Both the position numbers and the translations under genes were made by a program. The notes under the pieces are model-generated. The model did not search any database. It had not been told where the DNA came from and was given only the letters and a program-made list of their open reading frames with translations. From Amycolatopsis benzoatilytica AK 16/65 (GTDB lineage: Bacteria > Actinomycetota > Actinomycetes > Mycobacteriales > Pseudonocardiaceae): 64,000 bases of DNA. The stretch covers positions 6,072,564-6,136,563 of the forward strand of contig NZ_KB912942.1 in the NCBI RefSeq assembly GCF_000383915.1, given 5' to 3'. Below are positions 11,546 through 23,181 of the stretch, piece by piece; the first letter of the stretch is position 1; every line of letters starts with the position of its first letter.

Positions 11546-11965
11546 TCACTGGTGCCGCGGGGGGGTGCAGCACTCCGTGGCCTCCGGACCGAACGTCTGC
11601 GAGTCCGCCTTTACCGTGTAGACCTCCCACGGCTCCTGCCCGGGGCCGTGCACCCACACCTTGTCCTGTACGGCGTAGCAGCAGGTGGTGTTGTCTTCCG
11701 GCAGGGTGTCCAGCCCTTCGCCGGTCAGGCGCTTGCTCGCCGCGCTGACCTCGTCGGTCGATTCCACCTCGACGCCCAGGTGGTCCATCACGGTCGCCTG
11801 GCCCGGCTCGCCTTCCAGCAGCACGAGCTTCAGCGCCGGTTCAGCCACCGCGAAGTTGGCGTAACCAGGTCGCCGCTTGGCCGGTTCGACGCCGAACAGC
11901 TTCGAGTAGAAGTCGACCGAGCCTTCGAGATCGCCGACCCGCAGGGCCAGCTGCACACGAGACAT
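11546..11965 (-). CDS. arsI: ArsI/CadI-family arsenic/cadmium resistance metalloenzyme
   Basis: Vicinal-oxygen-chelate protein of 139 residues, homologous to ArsI C-As lyase and M. tuberculosis CadI (Rv2641). Predicted metal ligands Gln5, His62 and Glu114; the vicinal pair Cys95-Cys96 in NTTCCYAVQDKVWV, which binds trivalent arsenic in ArsI; and a C-terminal Cys132-Cys133. ATG 11965 follows AAGGAG and gives the family N-terminus MSRVQLAL; a longer start would run into the operator. Divergent from arsR across a 78-bp control region. Methylarsenite demethylation is inferred from family, with cadmium binding the alternative. Confidence 0.88.
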   Translation of the reverse strand: MSRVQLALRVGDLEGSVDFYSKLFGVEPAKRRPGYANFAVAEPALKLVLLEGEPGQATVMDHLGVEVESTDEVSAASKRLTGEGLDTLPEDNTTCCYAVQDKVWVHGPGQEPWEVYTVKADSQTFGPEATECCTPPRHQ

Positions 11966-11978
11966 CCGCACTCCTTGA

Positions 11979-12043
11979 TTAGAAGATTGTCTAAACAGTG
12001 CCCTCAGATTGCCGCTTGAATAGACGTCTGTCAAGATAGACGC
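11979..12043. promoter_or_regulatory. Candidate ArsR operators between arsI and arsR
   Basis: Two dyads in the divergent promoter region: TTAGA-N6-TCTAA (11979-11994), and ATAGACGTCTGT (12020-12031) centred on the palindrome AGACGTCT. ATAGACG recurs at 12036-12042, directly before the arsR start. One site is near each gene, which fits autoregulation plus control of arsI. Confidence 0.55.
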
Positions 12044-12406
12044 ATGCCGAAACAGCTGCCGATCGTCGCGATGGACGCCTGCTGTTCACCGCTTGCCCGC
12101 GAGCCGCTGAGCGAGGAGCAAGCCGTCGACCTGGCCAAGCTGTTCAAGGCGATAGCCGACCCGGTACGGCTGCGACTGCTGTCCCTGATCGCCTCGCACG
12201 AGGGAGGCGAGGCCTGCGTCTGCGACCTCACCGACGCGTTCGAGCTGACCGGCCCGACCATCTCGCACCACCTCAAGGTGCTGCGCGAGTCCGGCCTGAC
12301 CACCGGCGAACGGCGCGGCACCTGGATCTACTACCGCGTCCACCCCGAGGTGCTGGCCCGGCTTTCCGCCGTGCTCGTCCCGGGCGACGTCCCGGCGCCG
12401 GCATGA
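12044..12406 (+). CDS. arsR: ArsR-family metalloregulatory repressor
   Basis: Winged-helix repressor of 120 residues (core about 28-105; DNA-recognition helix TGPTISHHLKVLRESGL). Cysteines: Cys13-Cys14 in DACCSPLA and the pair in GEACVCDL at the start of helix 3. The N-terminal CC plus helix-3 Cys arrangement resembles Corynebacterium glutamicum ArsR, whose As(III) site uses those cysteines. Probably releases the arsI and arsR-acr3 promoters on As(III) binding. The last codons overlap the start of the transporter gene by 4 nt (ATGA), giving translational coupling. Confidence 0.93.
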   Translation: MPKQLPIVAMDACCSPLAREPLSEEQAVDLAKLFKAIADPVRLRLLSLIASHEGGEACVCDLTDAFELTGPTISHHLKVLRESGLTTGERRGTWIYYRVHPEVLARLSAVLVPGDVPAPA

Positions 12407-13845
12407 CCAGGCCCGCCCGGCTGTCCACGCTGGATCGCCTGCTGCCGGTCTGGATCGGTGCCGCGATGGCCGCCGGACTCCTTGCCGGACGGTGGATTCC
12501 CGGGCTGAACACCGCGGTGTCCGCCGTACAGGTGGACGGCATCTCCCTGCCGATCGCACTCGGCCTGCTGGTGATGATGTACCCGGTGCTGGCGAAGGTC
12601 CGCTACGACCGGCTGTCCTCGGTCACCCGCGACCGGCGGCTGCTGTGGCCGTCACTGGTGCTGAACTGGCTGGTCGGGCCGGCGCTGATGTTCACACTCG
12701 CCTGGCTGCTGGTGCCCGACCTGCCCGAGTACCGCACCGGCCTGATCATCGTCGGGCTGGCCCGGTGCATCGCGATGGTGATCATCTGGAACGACCTCGC
12801 CTGCGGAGATCGCGAAGCCGCCGCGGTGCTGGTCGCGCTGAACTCGGTGTTCCAAGTGGTCGCGTTCGGATTGCTGGGCTGGTTCTATCTCTCGGTGCTG
12901 CCGGGCTGGCTCGGCCTGCCACAGACCGATCTGACGGTGTCCGGCTGGCAGATCGCGAAAAGCGTGCTGATCTTCCTCGGCATCCCGCTCGTCGCCGGGT
13001 ATCTCACCCGCCGCCTCGGCGAGCGGGCGAAAGGCCGGGAGTGGTACGAGAACCGGTTCCTGCCGCGGATCGGCCCGGCCGCACTGTACGGGCTGCTGTT
13101 CACCATCGTCGTGCTGTTCGCGCTGCAGGGCGACCAGATCACCGCGCGACCGCTGGACGTCGCCCGGATCGCGGTGCCCCTGCTGGCCTACTTCGGGCTG
13201 ATGTGGGCCGGGTCGTACACGCTCGGCAAGGCGATCGGCCTGTCCTACGAACGCACCACCACACTGGCGTTCACCGCCGCGGGCAACAACTTCGAGCTGG
13301 CCATCGCGGTCGCGATCGCGACCTTCGGGGCGAAGAGCGGACAGGCGCTGGCCGGCGTGGTCGGGCCGCTGATCGAGGTGCCGGTGCTGGTGGGCTTGGT
13401 CTATGTCTCGCTGGCGCTTCGGCGCCGGTTTCGGAGTGGAGGTCGTGTGCGCACGCCGGAAGTCCTGTTCGTCTGTGTCCACAACGCGGGCCGTTCGCAG
13501 ATGGCCGCCGCGCTGCTGCACCAGCACGCGGACGGACGCGTCGCCGTCCGCTCCGCCGGATCAGCGCCCGGGAACGAGGTGAACCCGGCGGTGGTCGAGG
13601 TGATGGCCGAGATCGGCATCGACGTCTCCCGGGAGTTTCCGAAGAAACTCACCACCGACGCGGTGTCGGCGGCGGACGTCGTCATCACCATGGGCTGCGG
13701 CGACGCCTGCCCGGTTTTCCCGGGAAAGCGTTACCTCGACTGGAAACTCGACGACCCGGCCGGACTCTCCGCCGCGCAGATCCGCCCGATCCGCGACGAG
13801 ATCGATCGGCGCGTCCGGGCGCTGCTGGCAGAACTGGACGGATAG
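12403..13845 (+). CDS. acr3-arsC: ACR3 arsenite exporter fused to ArsC arsenate reductase
   Basis: Fusion of 480 residues. Residues 1-340: ACR3/bile-acid-type carrier with about ten membrane segments and the essential Cys122 (LARCIAMVIIWNDLA). Residues 341-351: basic linker. Residues 352-480: low-molecular-weight-phosphatase-type arsenate reductase, P-loop CVHNAGR (Cys358-Arg364), Cys432 and Cys436 in MGCGDACP, and DWKLDDP. The reductase makes arsenite at the membrane next to the exporter. M. tuberculosis Rv2643 has the same fusion beside cadI and arsR. GGAGG at 13438-13442 precedes in-frame GTG 13447, so a free ArsC of about 132 residues may also be made. Confidence 0.93.
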   Translation: MTRPARLSTLDRLLPVWIGAAMAAGLLAGRWIPGLNTAVSAVQVDGISLPIALGLLVMMYPVLAKVRYDRLSSVTRDRRLLWPSLVLNWLVGPALMFTLAWLLVPDLPEYRTGLIIVGLARCIAMVIIWNDLACGDREAAAVLVALNSVFQVVAFGLLGWFYLSVLPGWLGLPQTDLTVSGWQIAKSVLIFLGIPLVAGYLTRRLGERAKGREWYENRFLPRIGPAALYGLLFTIVVLFALQGDQITARPLDVARIAVPLLAYFGLMWAGSYTLGKAIGLSYERTTTLAFTAAGNNFELAIAVAIATFGAKSGQALAGVVGPLIEVPVLVGLVYVSLALRRRFRSGGRVRTPEVLFVCVHNAGRSQMAAALLHQHADGRVAVRSAGSAPGNEVNPAVVEVMAEIGIDVSREFPKKLTTDAVSAADVVITMGCGDACPVFPGKRYLDWKLDDPAGLSAAQIRPIRDEIDRRVRALLAELDG

Positions 13846-13874: not shown

Positions 13875-15260
13875 TCACGCGTCCAGGGCGACCTTCACGC
13901 CCGCGCTCGTCTCGGTGTTCCGCCGAGTCTTCGCCCACCCGTTACGCCCACGCACCAACCGGAACAGCGCGCGCCAGGACGTGATGTAGAAGGTGTAGAT
14001 GTACAGCGCGTACAGCAGCCCCATGCCGATCCCGCGGAAGATGTTCTTGCTGCGCAGGCATTTCATCTGATAGATCGGCCCCCACACCACGAACGGCAGC
14101 AGTCCGAACGAGCCGTAGATCGCGAAGAGGATCCAAGCGCCGCCGGTGAACCACGTCCACACCTGGCCCGGATCGCCGGCCGTGTTGACCAGGAGCAGGA
14201 TGAACGGAACCGGGTAGAGCAGCGAGCCGAGCAGCTGCATCCACGGCTGCGCAAGGTAGTACATCATCTCCGCGGCGCCCAAAGTGGACACGTGCGGCGA
14301 GTCCCAGATCCGGCGCAGGTACCGCATGCACTGCATGGTGCCCTGCCCCCACCGGGTGCGCTGCACGAGGAACCTGCGCAGGCTGTACAGCCCTTCCTGA
14401 TCCACGTGGGAGTCCGGGGTGAAGCCGGTGCGCCAGCCCGCGGTGAGCAGGTGCACGCCGAGTTCGAAGTCCTCCAGCAGGGAGCCTCGCCACGGGGCCA
14501 TCTCCCCGCCGCCGATCGAGTCCAACGCGGACAGCCGGGTGAACTGCCCATTGCCGCCCATCGAGATCGTGCCGGTGAAGCCGCGCGAGGTTTGGATGGC
14601 GGCGATCGCGGTGCGGAACTCCAGGTCCTGCAGCTGGGCGAGTTTCAGGCCGAACGCCCGGGAAAACCAGGTGCGGCCCGGCGCGCGGCCGTGCACGTTG
14701 CTCATCCGCACGTCGAGCTGGACGGCCCCGATGGTCTCGTCGCCGAACAAATGGTCCGCGGCGCACACTTCGAGGCAGTTGGGCGCGGGACGGCCGTCCG
14801 CGTCGACCACGACGACGACCACCCGGTCCCGGTCGGCGTTGGGGCCGAGCCAGTCGTCCAGTTCCCGGTAGGCGGCGTTGAGCGCGTCTCCCTTGCCAGT
14901 ACGGGCTTCCGGGCGCTCGCGGGCGACCAGGTGCAGGTTCGCGTCGTAGCCGCCGTTGCGCCGCCAGACCGATCGGACCACGCGCGCGGTCCGGTCGTCG
15001 GAATCGTCGTCGACGACCCACACGTGCGCGCGGCGGAACGTGCCGCGCAGGTAACGCACGGTCTCGCGGATCACCACCTCCTCGTCCCGGCACGGAACGA
15101 AGAAGTGCCAGGAGAAGTCGGCCGGATCGCCGACCGGGGCGGGTTTGCGGCGCAGGTAGGGCACCACGATCAGCACGACGTACACCAGGAACGCGACGCT
15201 CATGGTGAGCGCGAACGCCTGCGTGACCGACAGCAGGATCTTCAGGCCGGAGTCGCTCAC
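13875..15260 (-). CDS. Processive GT2-family membrane glycosyltransferase
   Basis: Membrane glycosyltransferase of 461 residues, of the cellulose/hyaluronan/poly-GlcNAc synthase type. Two N-terminal membrane segments, then a GT-A domain with VPCRDEEVVIRETV, WVVDDDSDD, the metal motif VVDADGRP, SLLEDFELG and QRTRWGQG (QxxRW), then about four C-terminal membrane segments. Donor and product are unknown. Start is GTG 15260, overlapping the exosortase stop by 4 nt (GTGA); a longer frame reaching 15305 would lie inside the exosortase gene. Coupling to an exosortase suggests it glycosylates, or makes a polymer joined to, the exosortase substrate. Confidence 0.88.
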   Translation of the reverse strand: MSDSGLKILLSVTQAFALTMSVAFLVYVVLIVVPYLRRKPAPVGDPADFSWHFFVPCRDEEVVIRETVRYLRGTFRRAHVWVVDDDSDDRTARVVRSVWRRNGGYDANLHLVARERPEARTGKGDALNAAYRELDDWLGPNADRDRVVVVVVDADGRPAPNCLEVCAADHLFGDETIGAVQLDVRMSNVHGRAPGRTWFSRAFGLKLAQLQDLEFRTAIAAIQTSRGFTGTISMGGNGQFTRLSALDSIGGGEMAPWRGSLLEDFELGVHLLTAGWRTGFTPDSHVDQEGLYSLRRFLVQRTRWGQGTMQCMRYLRRIWDSPHVSTLGAAEMMYYLAQPWMQLLGSLLYPVPFILLLVNTAGDPGQVWTWFTGGAWILFAIYGSFGLLPFVVWGPIYQMKCLRSKNIFRGIGMGLLYALYIYTFYITSWRALFRLVRGRNGWAKTRRNTETSAGVKVALDA

Positions 15261-15823
15261 GCCGCGGCCTGCTTCTCGGCCTTCGTCTTGCGCGTGGACA
15301 GCCACACGAACAGCACCAGGGAGATCGCGCCGCCGATGACACTGACCATCGAGCCGAGCAGGGTGTGCCCCCAGTAATAGCCCTCGTCCGTGCCTAAGGC
15401 GTTGACGAGGCCGACGATCGTCAGGATCCGTAACTGATTAACCAGAATCACCGCGATCACGGAAATTCCCAGCGCAAAAAGGAGCCGCCGGGCATTCCGC
15501 GGCCGGAACCAGAGCAGCACCGCGGTTACTAATAGCAACGGCAGCAGCAGGAATACCGAGGAGCATTCTGGCGTCATTCGCAACCCGAATGGAGTATCGC
15601 CAGTCAACCCGAAGTAGACCGTTTCCCGGTTTCCGGCGACATATACACCCGATGAGGTGATGACGCGAAGGATGGCACCGGCCAGGTGCACTTCGAGTTC
15701 GCGGTACGCGCGCTCCACGAGCACCAGCAGCACTCCGGCGACGAGCACGCAGAGCACTCCGAACAGCGCGATACGCTGCGGGAACTTGCGTGAACCAGTC
15801 ACCGGAACATGGACAGCAGCCAC
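15257..15823 (-). CDS. Exosortase/archaeosortase-family transpeptidase-like protein
   Basis: Integral membrane protein of 188 residues with five or six hydrophobic segments. The exosortase catalytic triad is visible in order: Cys87 in TPECSSVFLLLP, Arg132 in NQLRILTI and His153 in YYWGHTLLGS. The family cleaves C-terminal sorting signals and is thought to transfer the protein to a membrane or envelope anchor. Two leucines, L98 (15530-15532) and L131 (15431-15433), are TTA codons, and the gene uses many A/T-ending codons unlike its neighbours. GTG 15823 follows GAGAGG. Divergent from the secreted protein at 16151, its likely substrate. I cannot resolve the exosortase subtype. Confidence 0.85.
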   Translation of the reverse strand: MAAVHVPVTGSRKFPQRIALFGVLCVLVAGVLLVLVERAYRELEVHLAGAILRVITSSGVYVAGNRETVYFGLTGDTPFGLRMTPECSSVFLLLPLLLVTAVLLWFRPRNARRLLFALGISVIAVILVNQLRILTIVGLVNALGTDEGYYWGHTLLGSMVSVIGGAISLVLFVWLSTRKTKAEKQAAA

Positions 15824-16150
15824 GACGACCCTCTCAGCCGAAAACCCAGCGGAAACGAAGCGGACCCCACGGCGAGCTTAAGCCACGAAGTTTCCTCCCT
15901 GCACCGGACTGCCCCCATTCCGGAGACACCGGAGCAGCCTTCGGCACGATCCGCCGCAATCTTGCTAGGCCGTTCGAGTGAACGTTTACCCGACCTGGGA
16001 CAAAGCGAATTTCTATCACTCGATCCGGTGGTCGAGGGAAAAATCTGTGCCATTTCTGAAACTCCCGGCGATAACCGATCCGCGTGCCGACTCAAGGTTT
16101 CAGCGGGTTTCGTCCGTGCCGCGGCTCGCCCAGAGAAAATCGGAGGACCA
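15824..16150. other. Divergent control region of the exosortase module
   Basis: 327 bp without a gene, locally A/T-richer (about 16000-16070) than surrounding DNA. Small dyads occur (TCCGGAGACACCGGA near 15919; CACTCGATCC/GGTGGTCGAG near 16018). No known riboswitch pattern was recognised. Promoters for both directions should be here. Confidence 0.45.
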
Positions 16151-16918
16151 GTGAAGAGACACCTCGTGCGACGGGGCGGAGCGATCGCCGCGGTCGTGGC
16201 GAGCATCGCCTTGGCCGGTGCCGTTCCGGCCAGCGCCGCTCCCGGCGACGGGTCGGCCTACGGCGTCGACGTCAAAGTGACGCTGCTCGGGCAGCCCGCG
16301 GTGACGCTCGGCCCGCTCGCGGCGGCGAACACCAACGGCCCGACGCACAACACCGCGGTCTCCGCGAACGTGCCCGGCGTGCTGTCCACCGGCGTGATCA
16401 ACACGTCCGCCGTGCGCGACGACAACTCCGGCTCCGTGACGTCGAAGGCGTCGACCGCCGACGTCGGTTTGCCGTTGCTCAAGGCCGCGCTCGGCAACGT
16501 CGGCGCGAAGGCCGTCGAAGCGGTGTGCACCGCGACACAGGAAGGCGTGAAGGGCAGCAGCACACTGGTCGGTGCGAACCTCGGCAGCCTGGGCAAGGTC
16601 GACGCCACCCCGGCGGCGAACACCCAGCTCGCCGTGAACGTCGGCCCGCTGCACATCGCGACGCTGATCCTCAACGAGCAGATCAAGAACAAGGACGGCA
16701 GCCTCACGGTCAACGCGCTGCACCTGAAACTGCTCGGCGGCGAGGCGCTCGGCGCTCTCGGCTCGGGCGACGTGGTCCTGTCGTCGGCGACCTGCGGCCC
16801 GGCCGCTCCCCCGATGCCGCTCGCTTCGGGCACCGGCATGTGGGTCGGCTTCGGCGTGCTCGCCGCGATCGCGGTGCCGGTCGGCCTGCGATTCAGCCGC
16901 CGGCGTTCGGCTGCCTGA
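16151..16918 (+). CDS. Secreted, C-terminally anchored surface protein (choice-of-anchor-like)
   Basis: Exported protein of 255 residues. Signal peptide 1-29 (KRHLVRRGG then a hydrophobic core, cut after PASA). The mature part is rich in Gly/Ala/Val/Asn/Thr beta-type segments (VDVKVTLLGQPAVTLGPLAAANTNG) with two cysteines. The tail has the three-part layout of a sorting signal: PMPLASGTG, a membrane segment (about 228-247) and RFSRRRSAA. It resembles actinobacterial 'choice-of-anchor' proteins, whose members use varied C-terminal anchors. GTG 16151 follows GGAGG closely; an open frame continues upstream but lacks a signal peptide. Likely client of the divergent exosortase. Confidence 0.75.
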   Translation: MKRHLVRRGGAIAAVVASIALAGAVPASAAPGDGSAYGVDVKVTLLGQPAVTLGPLAAANTNGPTHNTAVSANVPGVLSTGVINTSAVRDDNSGSVTSKASTADVGLPLLKAALGNVGAKAVEAVCTATQEGVKGSSTLVGANLGSLGKVDATPAANTQLAVNVGPLHIATLILNEQIKNKDGSLTVNALHLKLLGGEALGALGSGDVVLSSATCGPAAPPMPLASGTGMWVGFGVLAAIAVPVGLRFSRRRSAA

Positions 16919-16939
16919 CCCTCGTGAGGTGATGGATCG

Positions 16940-17119
16940 ATGTACAAGTTGCCTGGTGCCGGGGTCGGCGTCGCCGGTGGCGGAGTGGGCACCCTCGCCG
17001 CCACCGGCGCCGACGTCGGCTGGTGGCTCGCGCTCGGCGTCCTGCTGGTGATCCTCGGGGTCGCCGCACTGGTCGCCGTGCGCCGCCGGAACCGGCGGTT
17101 CGCCCGCCTGGACGGCTGA
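16940..17119 (+). CDS. 59-residue peptide consisting mostly of a LAATG sorting signal and TM anchor
   Basis: Short gene 21 bp after the surface-protein gene, GAGGTGAT six bases before ATG 16940. The product starts with a Gly/Val-rich segment (MYKLPGAGVGVAGGGVG), then TLAATGADVG, one hydrophobic helix (WWLALGVLLVILGVAALVAV) and RRRNRRFARLDG. LAATG fits the LAxTG signal of class E sortases, and the motif-helix-basic layout also fits exosortase signals. There is no signal peptide and almost no body before the signal. It may be a small membrane partner of the module or a decayed surface protein. Confidence 0.6.
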   Translation: MYKLPGAGVGVAGGGVGTLAATGADVGWWLALGVLLVILGVAALVAVRRRNRRFARLDG

Positions 17120-17123
17120 AGTC

Positions 17124-17162
17124 CCGGGCTGCCGGCGGTCACGCCGCCGGCAGCCCGGTTTT
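17124..17162 (+). terminator. Intrinsic terminator after the LAATG peptide gene
   Basis: Perfect 15-bp stem (CCGGGCTGCCGGCGG with CCGCCGGCAGCCCGG), 5-nt loop, followed by TTTT. One of the few hairpins here with a T-run. It separates the surface-protein transcript from wecB. Confidence 0.85.
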
Positions 17163-17185
17163 CCGGGACACTCGAGAGGGTGAAG

Positions 17186-18346
17186 ATGGTGGACGTGATG
17201 CTGCTGGCCGGAACCCGGCCGGAAGCGGTCAAACTCGCGCCGCTCGCGCTGGCGCTCGACGCGCACCCCGGGTTGCGTCCGCTCGTCGTGCACAGCGGAC
17301 AGCACCAGGGCATGGTCGAGCAGGCGCTGGCGCCCTTCGGGGTGACTGTCGACGCGTGGCTGGACATCCCGCCGCGGGTCACCGGCACCCAGGCGGAACT
17401 GGTGTCCGGCCTGCTGCCCGCGCTGGACGCGGCGCTGCGCCGGTCCGAACCGGCCGCGGTCGTCGTGCAGGGCGACACCACGACCGGACTGGCCGGCGCG
17501 CTCGCCGCGTTCTGGCTCGGCATCCCGGTGGTGCACCTGGAAGCCGGGCTCCGTACGCACGATCTGACTTCGCCGTTCCCCGAGGAGGGAACGCGGCAGA
17601 TGATCTCGCGGATCGCGGCGCTGCACCTGGTTCCGACCACCGCGGCGGCGGTCGCGTTGCGTGCCGAAGGCGTTCCGGAGGAACGAATCACGCTCACTGG
17701 CAACACGGTCGTCGACGCGGTGCTGGCGGTGGCCGCGCGAGACCTGCCCGCGCGAGACCCGGCGCTCGCGTTGCTGGAGATGGAGATCGCCGAGGCGGGC
17801 GAACAGCTGGTACTGGTGACGTCGCACCGGCGGGAGTCCTGGGGACTGCCGTTGACGCGCACGCTCACCGCGGTGCGGCAGATCGTCGACGAGCATCCGA
17901 ACGTGCAGGTCTTGTTTCCGGTGCACCCGAATCCGGCAGTGCGGGCGCAGGTCGAAGAGGAGCTGGGCGGGGTCGAGCGGGTGACCGTGACCGAACCGCT
18001 GGAGTATCCGGATCTGGTGCGCGCGTTGCGGTTGGCGTCGCTGGTGCTGACCGATTCCGGTGGGATTCAAGAGGAAGCGCCGACCTTCGGCACCCCGGTG
18101 CTGGTCCTGCGGGACACCACGGAGCGGCCGGAAGCGGTCGACGCCGGCTGCGCCTGGTTGGTCGGCACGGAACCGGAGCTGATCACCACGCTTGCCGCGC
18201 GCATTCTCGGCGGGCAGCTGCGAGCAGCCGCGTCCGCGAACCCGTATGGGGACGGGTCCGCGGCAACGAAATCCGTGCTGGCGATCGAGACTCTGCTGGG
18301 CCACTCTCGCGCCGCGGCGAGCCTGGTGAGCGAAGAAGCCGGTTAG
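17186..18346 (+). CDS. wecB: UDP-N-acetylglucosamine 2-epimerase (non-hydrolysing)
   Basis: Interconverts UDP-GlcNAc and UDP-ManNAc for surface polysaccharide or teichoic-type polymers; cytosolic, 386 residues, usual length. Seen: AGTRPEAVKLAPL, VQGDTTTGLAGALAA, HLEAGLRT, TGNTVVDAV, TSHRRES, FPVHPNP and DSGGIQEEAPTFGTPVLVLR. ATG 17186 is favoured because GAGAGGG lies 5 nt upstream; GTG 17180 overlaps that site. Behind the surface-protein genes but after a terminator, so it has its own promoter. It could supply UDP-ManNAc to the nearby GT2 enzyme (inference). Confidence 0.92.
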   Translation: MVDVMLLAGTRPEAVKLAPLALALDAHPGLRPLVVHSGQHQGMVEQALAPFGVTVDAWLDIPPRVTGTQAELVSGLLPALDAALRRSEPAAVVVQGDTTTGLAGALAAFWLGIPVVHLEAGLRTHDLTSPFPEEGTRQMISRIAALHLVPTTAAAVALRAEGVPEERITLTGNTVVDAVLAVAARDLPARDPALALLEMEIAEAGEQLVLVTSHRRESWGLPLTRTLTAVRQIVDEHPNVQVLFPVHPNPAVRAQVEEELGGVERVTVTEPLEYPDLVRALRLASLVLTDSGGIQEEAPTFGTPVLVLRDTTERPEAVDAGCAWLVGTEPELITTLAARILGGQLRAAASANPYGDGSAATKSVLAIETLLGHSRAAASLVSEEAG

Positions 18347-20558: not shown

Positions 20559-20780
20559 GATTTCCCAGGGTAGCCCTGGACCCGACGGGACGCGGGGGCG
20601 GGAGGGCACCGCCGACCGGATACGGAAAGTGACCGGACCGGCGGCGATCACTGCGGTAAGTGAGCACTTCCCCTGCCCGGCTAGGGGATTTTGTCCGCAC
20701 TGGGAACCGTCGGCGACTAAGCTGAGTCCGAACGTCGGCAGAGATAGACGCTGCCGCCGGGTACTAGGGGGAGCGTGATC

Positions 20781-21287
20781 GTGGGCAACGGCCAGTCGTC
20801 CAGCAGCGAATCGTCCAGCTCGAGCAATCCGGCGGACGGGCGCGCCGGGTACGTCGACCCGGAAGAGCAGGCCCTTCGCGACCGCCAGGACGAGCAGTTC
20901 GGCGAAGCGATGAACATGAACGGCGTGCACGTCTACCAGCGCCGCGCGGCCGAGGACGCCAAGGTCAACGCTGCCGCCGCGGGCGGCGGGTTCCACATGG
21001 ACATCGACGCGATGAAGAAGCTCCAGCCCCAGTGGCAGAGCATCGCGGACAAGCTGAGCGACATGATCGCCGCCGGCGGCCAGCTGCGAGTCGTGCCCCC
21101 GCCTGCCGAAGACCCGGCCAGCTCGATGCAGAAAAAGGCGGCGGACATGCACGCCGACGCGTACTTGAAGAGCCTGCGGCAGCAATACGAATACGCGAAG
21201 GGCTACGCGAGCAAGCTGCAAGAAGCGATCGACAAGACCGCGGCGCAGGATCAGGCCAACACCGACAGCCTCCGCAAGCAGGGATGA
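20781..21287 (+). CDS. WXG100/EspC-like helical protein of a satellite T7SS operon
   Basis: 168-residue acidic protein. A Ser-rich N-terminus (GNGQSSSSESSSSS) and a short charged region precede a helical segment (about 70-165) with heptad-like spacing (MDIDAMKKLQPQWQSIADKLSDMI; YLKSLRQQYEYAKGYASKLQ). The QPQWQS turn is a poor WXG. No cysteines or membrane segment. GTG 20781 is picked because AGGGGGAG lies 7 nt upstream; GTG 20775 is too close to it. First of four overlapping or abutting genes that end with an EspG-like chaperone, hence the T7SS assignment. No sequence family recognised. Confidence 0.65.
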   Translation: MGNGQSSSSESSSSSNPADGRAGYVDPEEQALRDRQDEQFGEAMNMNGVHVYQRRAAEDAKVNAAAAGGGFHMDIDAMKKLQPQWQSIADKLSDMIAAGGQLRVVPPPAEDPASSMQKKAADMHADAYLKSLRQQYEYAKGYASKLQEAIDKTAAQDQANTDSLRKQG

Positions 21288-21880
21288 CCCGAGTGAAGAC
21301 ACGCATCGCGGCCGGCCCGGCCGTCGGCCTCCTGCTGCTTGCCACGGCTGCTTGTTCCTCGACGCCGGGCACCCCGGCACCGGCCGCGTCCGCCGCGCCG
21401 TCCAGCTCGTCGCCCAGCGTGCCGAAGGTGAACGCCCCGCTGGATGCCGCCAAGTACGAGCAGAACCCGTGCGCACTGCTCAGCTCGGCCCAGGCGACCG
21501 AGGTGATCAAGTCGGTCCGCAACCGGCAGGGCAAAGGCCTGGTCGGACCCATTTGCACCTGGAACGATGCCGACAGCAACAGCGTCGCCGTCGGGTTGGT
21601 CCCCGGACAGGGCGGACTCGCTAGTTCCTACGCGTACCGCGACAGTGCCGCCGGCTACTTCCAGGTCGCACCGGACGTGAACGGCTACCCCGCGGTGTAC
21701 ACCTCGCCGTCGGACGACCGGAAAAACGGCGGCTGCCAGGCCGTGGTCGGCATCAAAGACGACGAGACCCTCACCTCTTCGGTCTTGCTCGACAAAACGT
21801 CGCCGGATTACCGCGACCCGTGCTCGCTGGCCGCGAAGGCCGCCGCCGCGGCGGTCGCCACTATCAAGGCAGGTGCGTGA
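21284..21880 (+). CDS. DUF3558-type secreted lipoprotein
   Basis: 198-residue exported lipoprotein. N-terminal signal (MTRVKTRIAAGPAVGLLLLATAAC, shown in part: GLLLLATAAC) with the acylated Cys at 24, then a Pro/Ser/Ala linker (about 25-50). The folded domain has NPCALLSSAQATEVI near its start, CTWND, GGCQAVVGI and DPCSLAAKAAAAAV near its end, the conserved cysteine pattern of DUF3558. Function of the family is unknown. Overlaps the previous gene by 4 nt (ATGA) and shares one base with the next (TGATG). Confidence 0.85.
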   Translation: MTRVKTRIAAGPAVGLLLLATAACSSTPGTPAPAASAAPSSSSPSVPKVNAPLDAAKYEQNPCALLSSAQATEVIKSVRNRQGKGLVGPICTWNDADSNSVAVGLVPGQGGLASSYAYRDSAAGYFQVAPDVNGYPAVYTSPSDDRKNGGCQAVVGIKDDETLTSSVLLDKTSPDYRDPCSLAAKAAAAAVATIKAGA

Positions 21881-23181
21881 TGGCCAACCTCAGTCCGCAG
21901 GAAATCGTTCGCCTGGTCAAGTCCGGCAAGGGCTCGGTCGGCCTGTACCAGGGCTCCGACCAGTCCGCCCAGCTGTCCGCGCAGCACGAGCAGATCGCCG
22001 GCGAGATGCGCCGGCTGCAGAGCTCGATGAGCGAGTTCTGGCAGGGCGACTCGGCCGGCCAGGCCTACGCCGGCGCCGGACCGCTGGTTCAGGCATCCCA
22101 GACAAGCGGGCAGCACCTCGCGCAGGCCCAGGACCTGTACCAGGGCCAGGGCGGTTCCTTCAACTCTCTGCAGAGCAAGATCCAGGGCGTTGGAGACCTC
22201 GGCGACAAGCCGGCCAACGACTGGGTCTCCGACACCCCGCTTTCCTTCATGTCCAATCGAGCCGACGAGATCGACGCATGGAACAAGAAGGCCCAGATCG
22301 TCACTGACAGTTACAGTACTTATCACTCCCAGTCCTCGGACAACTCGGCCCAATGGACGAACCCCTCGCAGTACGGCGAGCTCGCTCTGCCCTCGGCCGG
22401 CGGCGACTTCACCGTCACCCAGCCGAGCAGCACCGGCACCGGGCATCTGCCCACGCGTTACCTGCCGGGCGGCGGGTCGATGCCCAACGACGGTTACGCC
22501 GGCGGCGGCAACAGCACCACCAGCAGCACCGGCAGCACTAGCACCGGTTCCGCCACCGACCACACCAACGACCGCACCGGTCCGCCGGGAGCCCTGCCGC
22601 CGTCGGACACGCATCCGTGGGGCCCGAAGGACGTTCCGCCGGCTCACCCGCCGGTCGACCCGCCGGTCCGGCATTCGGGCGGGACGGAGGAGACCACCAC
22701 GTCCGGCTACGTTCCGCCGGACGTCACCACGACCAACCCGGTCAACCCCTGGTCGCCGAACGGCACCGGGCCGAACCCGACCAGCGGGGGCGGCGGGAAC
22801 AGCAACAGCCTCTACGCGCCCGGGGTCACCGGTCCGTTCGGCGGAGCCGGCGGCAGCGACTTCAGCGGCGGGCGCGGCGGCTCCACCGGCGGTCCGGGCG
22901 GCAGCGGCGGCGCGGGCAACAGCCTCGGCCGCGGCGCGGGTGCGGGCACCGGCGCCGGGTCGGTCGGCAATGCCGAGGCCGTCGGCGGCAAGGGCGGCGT
23001 GGCCGGTGCGGCCGGTCGTCCAGGGGCGTCGGGCATGGGCGGCGCGATGGGGCACGGCAAGAAGGGCGAAGGCGAGGACGACCTGGTCCACGAGACCGCC
23101 GACTACCTCGTCGAACAGGACCCGGACGCCGCGCTGATCGGCGAGCTGCCCAAGGCGGTCCCGCCGGTGATCGGTCTCTGA
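21880..23181 (+). CDS. T7SS substrate-like protein with WXG100-type head and Gly/Ser/Thr/Pro-rich tail
   Basis: 433 residues. The head (about 1-150) is helical with FWQGDSAGQAYAGA, a W-x-G turn of the WXG100/PPE kind. The middle and tail (about 160-390) are low-complexity Gly, Ser, Thr, Asn and Pro. The end is ordered again: DDLVHETADYLVEQDPDAALIG followed by ELPKAVPPVIGL. YLVEQD fits the YxxxD/E T7SS export signal. The tail pattern GE-x5-PPVIG recurs in the ESX-4 protein at 58355. ATG 21880 shares a base with the lipoprotein stop; longer starts run into the lipoprotein gene. Likely secreted, role unknown. Confidence 0.72.
   Translation: MANLSPQEIVRLVKSGKGSVGLYQGSDQSAQLSAQHEQIAGEMRRLQSSMSEFWQGDSAGQAYAGAGPLVQASQTSGQHLAQAQDLYQGQGGSFNSLQSKIQGVGDLGDKPANDWVSDTPLSFMSNRADEIDAWNKKAQIVTDSYSTYHSQSSDNSAQWTNPSQYGELALPSAGGDFTVTQPSSTGTGHLPTRYLPGGGSMPNDGYAGGGNSTTSSTGSTSTGSATDHTNDRTGPPGALPPSDTHPWGPKDVPPAHPPVDPPVRHSGGTEETTTSGYVPPDVTTTNPVNPWSPNGTGPNPTSGGGGNSNSLYAPGVTGPFGGAGGSDFSGGRGGSTGGPGGSGGAGNSLGRGAGAGTGAGSVGNAEAVGGKGGVAGAAGRPGASGMGGAMGHGKKGEGEDDLVHETADYLVEQDPDAALIGELPKAVPPVIGL

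Follow-up and report, generated by a model that had tools for sequence, protein, structure and literature searches.

Among exosortase systems, the closest analogue of the locus described here is the XrtG system of Firmicutes, a Gram-positive system in which, as reported for L. plantarum, the exosortase lies beside a CTERM protein and two glycosyltransferases (PMC12854382). Class E sortases use LAXTG signals, as has been reported (PMC5148588), and the closest experimentally studied glycan analogue is MatAB, in which a family 2 glycosyltransferase (GT2) serves the synthesis of an amino-sugar polymer, poly-N-acetylglucosamine (PNAG) (PMC5972031). The soil actinomycete Amycolatopsis benzoatilytica AK 16/65 possesses, within a stretch of 64,000 nucleotides (contig NZ_KB912942.1, positions 6,072,564 to 6,136,563 of the forward strand; hereafter the window), a five-gene surface cassette that encodes exosortase P (XrtP), a GT2 enzyme, a secreted choice-of-anchor P protein (CoaP), a single-helix micropeptide that begins with Met-Tyr, and WecB, the non-hydrolysing UDP-N-acetylglucosamine (UDP-GlcNAc) 2-epimerase. 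Exosortases are found beside glycan genes, as with XrtG, and to our knowledge no link between the two is known. The reading that we favour, tentatively and with some doubt, is that the cassette may build a surface glycan and have two separate sorting outputs: CoaP, processed by XrtP, and the micropeptide, processed by a sortase-type enzyme, in addition to an amino-sugar polymer made by the GT2 and WecB.

A conserved five-gene cassette

The five genes lie where a preliminary description had placed them. XrtP (188 amino acids, 15257..15823, minus strand; NF012139, 273.7 bits, cut-off 200) and the XrtP-associated GT2 (476 amino acids as the longest open reading frame, 13875..15305, minus strand; NF053846, 739 bits, cut-off 520) are divergent from CoaP, the presumed XrtP substrate (16151..16918, plus strand; NF040603, 94.2 bits, cut-off 27; NF053845, 56.6 bits, cut-off 35), the micropeptide (LAXTG_small_WW, 59 amino acids with a basic tail, 16940..17119, plus strand; NF058583, 93.5 bits, cut-off 65), and WecB (17180..18346, plus strand; TIGR00236, 379.3 bits, cut-off 210.15). 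Since all five genes exceed the NCBIfam cut-offs and their order and orientation are conserved, the cassette is more than a chance arrangement. The XrtP system is already catalogued, in that NCBIfam names all five genes; the link to WecB is named by none of its models. The system had been called uncharacterised, which holds at the level of experiment, no experimental study of XrtP or of the Met-Tyr peptide having been found in the literature searched (subscription literature not covered), but not at the level of gene families.

XrtP was found in one of 246 genomes of the class, the window's own (E <= 1e-20). At the level of the family, 52 of 200 genomes gave a hit at E <= 1e-10, and 45 of these exceed the cut-off. 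The same 200 genomes contain an over-cut-off GT2 in 52 cases, CoaP_CTERM in 49 and the micropeptide in 50 (LAXTG matches down to 6.0e-9 were entered and weaker ones omitted, and one match of 5.0e-9 within a 465-residue frame of G301 was excluded). Among the 52 XrtP genomes, the GT2 is shared by 50, CoaP_CTERM by 46 and the small peptide by 47; the Fisher values computed for this co-occurrence take no account of phylogeny. An over-cut-off GT2 lies within 3 kb of 52 of the 55 XrtP copies; GT2, CoaP and peptide are all present within that distance of 47 copies, with identical order and orientation in 47 of 47. The conserved co-occurrence expected by the preliminary description is thus borne out, and the exosortase-substrate pair, the processive-type GT2 and WecB are conserved together. 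G365, which appeared to have XrtP without CoaP, was rejected as such a case because its gene is interrupted by a run of N in the assembly.

Incomplete copies include the remnants in G350 and G367, which have no over-cut-off GT2, and the diverged exosortases of G300, G306, G403, G270 and a second copy in G263; a Met-Tyr LxxTG peptide is nearby at all five diverged-exosortase loci on direct scanning (L179, L180, L264, L192 and L188). The cassette is located near tsaD, and usually also groES-groEL, in Amycolatopsis, and mostly in a different neighbourhood in other genera; neighbouring genes presumably encode a nicotinamidase and a cysteine-synthase-like protein. G398, of the same genus and with no XrtP hit, has GT2 remnants beside tsaD, the site of the cassette in Amycolatopsis (L242:5054-5959), probably the result of secondary loss. 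Genes of several of the locus sets, and of the Met-Tyr background given below, were predicted with a simple script based on third-position GC content (GC3).

The exosortase and CoaP

The residues Cys87 (15565-15563), Arg132 (15430-15428) and His153 (15367-15365, all minus strand), already singled out from the XrtP sequence, coincide exactly with the catalytic columns of an alignment of 65 exosortase rows (some loci represented twice), in which Cys is present in 61, Arg in 64 and His in 62. Only L179, whose one gene supplies two rows, and L182 have a broken triad, and the row of the L181 fragment is gapped. CoaP has an N-terminus that looks like a signal peptide by eye and a C-terminal LASGTG motif (residues 224-229, 16820..16837, plus strand) followed by a helix and RRR; its predicted structure is beta-rich, with a mean predicted local distance difference test (pLDDT) score of 78. 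Of the 66 members of the CoaP-like cluster, 51 carry the signal ASGxG, which is present at 30 of the 31 Amycolatopsis loci, the exceptions being one Amycolatopsis gene with a run of N, L188, a mis-called open reading frame and, for the most part, paralogues with no tail. A225, S226, G227 and G229 of the motif are invariant in 38 aligned sequences.

Two exosortases have replaced the Cys: that of G300 (locus L179), where Cys has become His and the catalytic His has become Ala, and that of G367 (locus L182), where Cys has become Gly. CoaP_CTERM is absent from both genomes. The strongest support here for an action of XrtP on CoaP is that the catalytic Cys and the substrate have twice been lost together, and with the co-occurrence of the two this favours the proposal that XrtP, as a Cys-Arg-His membrane transpeptidase or protease, would cut CoaP at its ASGxG-helix-Arg tail. 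G300 has retained the GT2, an LAVTG peptide and WecB despite its Cys- and His-less exosortase, and since all three remain in L179, they may well function where the exosortase is inactive.

The preliminary description had proposed that XrtP links CoaP covalently to a glycan made by the GT2, a proposal that is compatible with parts of the reading favoured here and that we judge to be distinctly unlikely. It would fit the presence of a single over-cut-off CoaP_CTERM protein in the window's genome, adjoining the exosortase and the GT2, and also, as the favoured reading would, the longer end branches of the GT2 at loci with an absent or dead exosortase (L184, 0.35, with sister L178 at 0.05; L183, 0.70; L190, 0.92; L179, 0.44; median 0.16). 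These lengths come from a quick tree with long branches, from which four near-duplicate rows were excluded, and on which exosortase presence requires five changes. Against the proposal, the pairing of GT2 and WecB is common where no exosortase is present (25 of 25 loci), so the glycan does not need the exosortase.

A search of the class for any exosortase found one in 9 of 296 genomes, the window's own locus included. The peptide accompanies seven of the nine, WecB seven, and a GT homologue is nearby in all nine (two of them weak, at 22 and 27% identity). Seven exosortases from this search, as scanned, are below the XrtP, XrtR and XrtS cut-offs. Actinobacterial exosortases that score in this way (L236, L237, L238, L239, L240 and L188), some of them near CTERM-like proteins of their own, are by sequence score uncatalogued subtypes. 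The window's XrtP is distant from XrtG (22.4 bits, cut-off 102.75).

A second choice_anch_P protein of the window's genome (L243:3850-5243; C1, about 284.8-286.3 kb) has no visible membrane anchor and is encoded directly upstream of a sortase-domain gene, so that the same domain has a different anchoring partner.

The Met-Tyr micropeptide

The micropeptide, which the preliminary description underrated, has the form MYKLPG...LAATG-helix-RRRNRR, with the Tyr2 codon at 16943..16945 and the LAATG motif at 16994..17008 (plus strand). It passes the sortase-signal model TIGR01167 (24.5 bits, cut-off 15.9), with LAATG, helix and RRRNRR all present, and no N-terminal signal peptide is visible by eye. 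Compared with the reported class E sortase substrates (PMC5148588), it shares the L[AP]xTG-helix-basic tail, and differs in having no visible separate signal peptide or domain, and little beyond the sorting signal and Met-Tyr. The window's genome encodes a class E sortase (five of six sortase hits were classed).

Such a peptide is encoded at 60 of the 64 exosortase loci examined, among them loci whose exosortase falls under all the subtype cut-offs, and at all 60 an L[AP]xTG-helix-basic open reading frame has Tyr directly after the start codon (49 ATG, 11 GTG). The scan did not require Tyr for the choice of frame, but it accepted any in-frame start codon within 40 residues upstream. Among the 60 are the window's own locus and 31 from Amycolatopsis, and the other 28 provide the more independent evidence. 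By comparison, Met-Tyr begins one of 242 other predicted ATG genes at the same loci. The 60 peptides have 49-72 residues, of which 4-18 separate Tyr2 from the motif, and the invariant columns over 16 diverse micropeptides are M1, Y2, L19, G23 and G40 (row L237 of this alignment, A2, is misaligned at the motif). Tyr2 is also present in 100 of 108 hits of a profile search, a count biased by the Met-Tyr contained in the profile itself. Nine peptides from other loci fall under the cut-off of NF058583, which represents the XrtP-type peptide, or do not match it. At two loci that have no exosortase and whose GT2 is gone or fragmented, the micropeptide looks decayed: in the one at L187:6790-6933 no start codon directly precedes a Tyr, and the helix of the one at L185:7287-7424 is broken up.

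The micropeptide is not a reduced version of the CoaP signal. Its motif is L[AP]xTG and that of CoaP is ASGxG, so that a single enzyme for both signals was rejected; it persists without CoaP beside the Cys- and His-less exosortase of L179; and it is also found at four loci of deep-branching genomes (L280, L281, L284 and L286) where a profile search of the stretches detected no exosortase. There a peptide of 38-39 residues, MY(G/N)(V/A)LLPVTG-helix-basic, with three residues from Tyr2 to the motif, occurs together with WecB and a GT2 fused to a DUF2334 domain. The same three facts (the survival at L179, the four loci and the difference in motif) tell against an ordinary XrtP system, in which XrtP would process both CoaP and the micropeptide, the GT2 would decorate CoaP and WecB would supply the sugar, with nothing beyond what NCBIfam records. 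We regard this simpler account as somewhat unlikely; it has in its favour that NCBIfam names all the components, the GT2 as XrtP-associated, that the peptide occurs at 60 of 64 exosortase loci, and that the XrtG system, as reported for L. plantarum (PMC12854382), is analogous.

The glycosyltransferase and WecB

The preliminary description had noted that the exosortase gene overlaps the GT2 gene. A short overlap stands: translation of the GT2 probably begins at the GTG codon 15260-15258, which shares bases with the XrtP stop codon (GTGA). The longer overlap implied by the longest open reading frame is less likely, because 19 of the 20 first-listed homologues have 457-467 amino acids, compared with 476. 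The protein has the D, DxD, ED and QxxRW motifs and the membrane helices of a processive-type GT2. Among 74 aligned GTs, the first D of the DD pair is present in 68 and the second in 74, the two D of DxD in 74 and 73, ED in 74, Q and R of QxxRW in 74 and W in 72. Its AlphaFold model (mean pLDDT 76) has hyaluronan, cellulose and chitin synthases among its best structural matches (hyaluronan synthase 7sp7, E=6.9e-12; cellulose synthase 4p00, E=2.3e-10). Identification as the PNAG synthase PgaC/IcaA was rejected (TIGR03937, 35.1 bits, cut-off 422.3), and the window's GT2 differs from PNAG synthases in being accompanied by WecB and an L[AP]xTG peptide.

At all 31 named Amycolatopsis loci, and at all 16 loci from other GTDB genera, WecB adjoins the peptide. 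Chance proximity was rejected, since WecB accompanies the cassette in both of its chromosomal settings and is the sole copy above the cut-off in the window's genome (a second hit, of 142.6 bits, is below it). Where GT2 homologues have no exosortase, WecB adjoins in all 25 loci, and it does so in 10 of the 12 exosortase-less loci of the phylum set. A Streptomyces plasmid groups together a polysaccharide deacetylase, GT2, WecB and GH16. Because the pairing of GT2 and WecB recurs with and without an exosortase, and because of this plasmid grouping, the product of the GT2 is likely to be an amino-sugar polymer.

GT2-DUF2334 (deacetylase-like) fusions of 949-1209 amino acids occur at L280, L281, L284, L286 and L288, with WecB adjoining at four of the five; neither the peptide nor WecB was found in the L288 stretch. 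These fusions recall the GT2-CE4 protein MatB (PMC5972031).

A possible glycan acceptor and the evidence against it

In the favoured reading of the cassette as having two outputs, XrtP would cut CoaP, and the GT2, to judge by its hyaluronan- and cellulose-synthase-like fold, its motifs and its linkage, would polymerise and export an amino-sugar polymer from UDP-N-acetylmannosamine (UDP-ManNAc) and/or UDP-GlcNAc, the former supplied by WecB. The micropeptide would sit in the membrane with its N-terminus outside and its basic tail inside, its export resting on the single helix. After cleavage at L[AP]xTG by a class E sortase, the wall would carry a short peptide with the Tyr, about 9 to 24 residues long in the various relatives; the polymer may begin at Tyr2 or be joined to it, and would thereby be fixed to peptidoglycan. 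XrtP would subsequently join CoaP to that glycan, or merely free CoaP from the membrane. The conserved Tyr2, the variable length of the linker and the tiny mature size would suit a glycan acceptor or tether more than they would a structural protein; the polymer type, topology, sortase processing, linkage and role of Tyr as acceptor are all proposed here from gene content and motifs.

Extended to Actinomycetota at large, the proposal is that the Met-Tyr micropeptide may be a minimal sortase-anchored glycan acceptor, with the polymer of GT2 and WecB carried on Tyr2 and a CTERM protein added in the lineages that have an exosortase; in this general form we think it unlikely. If it were true, wall polysaccharide would be covalently linked by way of protein sorting, not by phosphodiester ligases, and the micropeptide may explain how a synthase-made polymer is bound to the wall. 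With 38-72 residues, and Met-Tyr and the sorting signal as its fixed features, it would be a small, synthesisable target for tests of glycosylation and wall attachment.

Several observations weigh against the favoured reading. The peptide is missing from four of the 64 exosortase loci, two of them remnants (L181 and L182) and two distant systems (L234 and L235). CoaP_CTERM is absent not only with the Cys-less exosortases but also from G306 and G403, which have diverged exosortases with intact triads and which may act on other substrates, and from the G350 remnant, which has kept the triad residues; conversely, CoaP occurs without XrtP in three of 49 CoaP genomes (G351, G368 and G412). No WecB was found in the stretches examined of L192, L234, L240, L279, L283 and L288. 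The main evidence against the acceptor idea comes from a Pseudonocardiaceae clade of 22 GT2 enzymes without an exosortase, where a single-helix open reading frame lies upstream at 15 loci and none at seven, and where Tyr2 is present in four of the 15 and L[AP]xTG in one. If the peptide of this clade is a relative at all, it cannot there serve as an acceptor that is sorted and bears the Tyr, and it more closely resembles a subunit of the GT2 in the membrane.

PgaD and IcaD provide the model for such a subunit: the micropeptide would be a membrane accessory of the GT2, needed for polymerisation, with Tyr2 contacting the synthase and LxxTG being secondary. The 15 of 22 Pseudonocardiaceae loci with a small open reading frame directly upstream of the GT2, usually without Tyr2 and LxxTG, speak for this alternative, as does a Streptomyces plasmid locus, where an 80-amino-acid Met-Tyr open reading frame without LxxTG immediately precedes the GT2. 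The L[AP]xTG motif, however, is kept across a large divergence, including a form of 39 amino acids with only MYGVL before LPVTG, and the linker varies widely in length, which would be odd for a docking segment; we consider the accessory role improbable.

Neighbouring genes

Beside the cassette, positions 11546-13845 of the window encode an SBF-type permease fused to a low-molecular-weight phosphatase domain, in an arsenic-type operon; we take the fusion to resemble Acr3-ArsC, and the preceding open reading frames presumably encode an ArsR regulator and a glyoxalase-like protein. On the other side of the cassette, the genes at 20775-23181 are presumably an ESX/WXG100-type secretion cluster.

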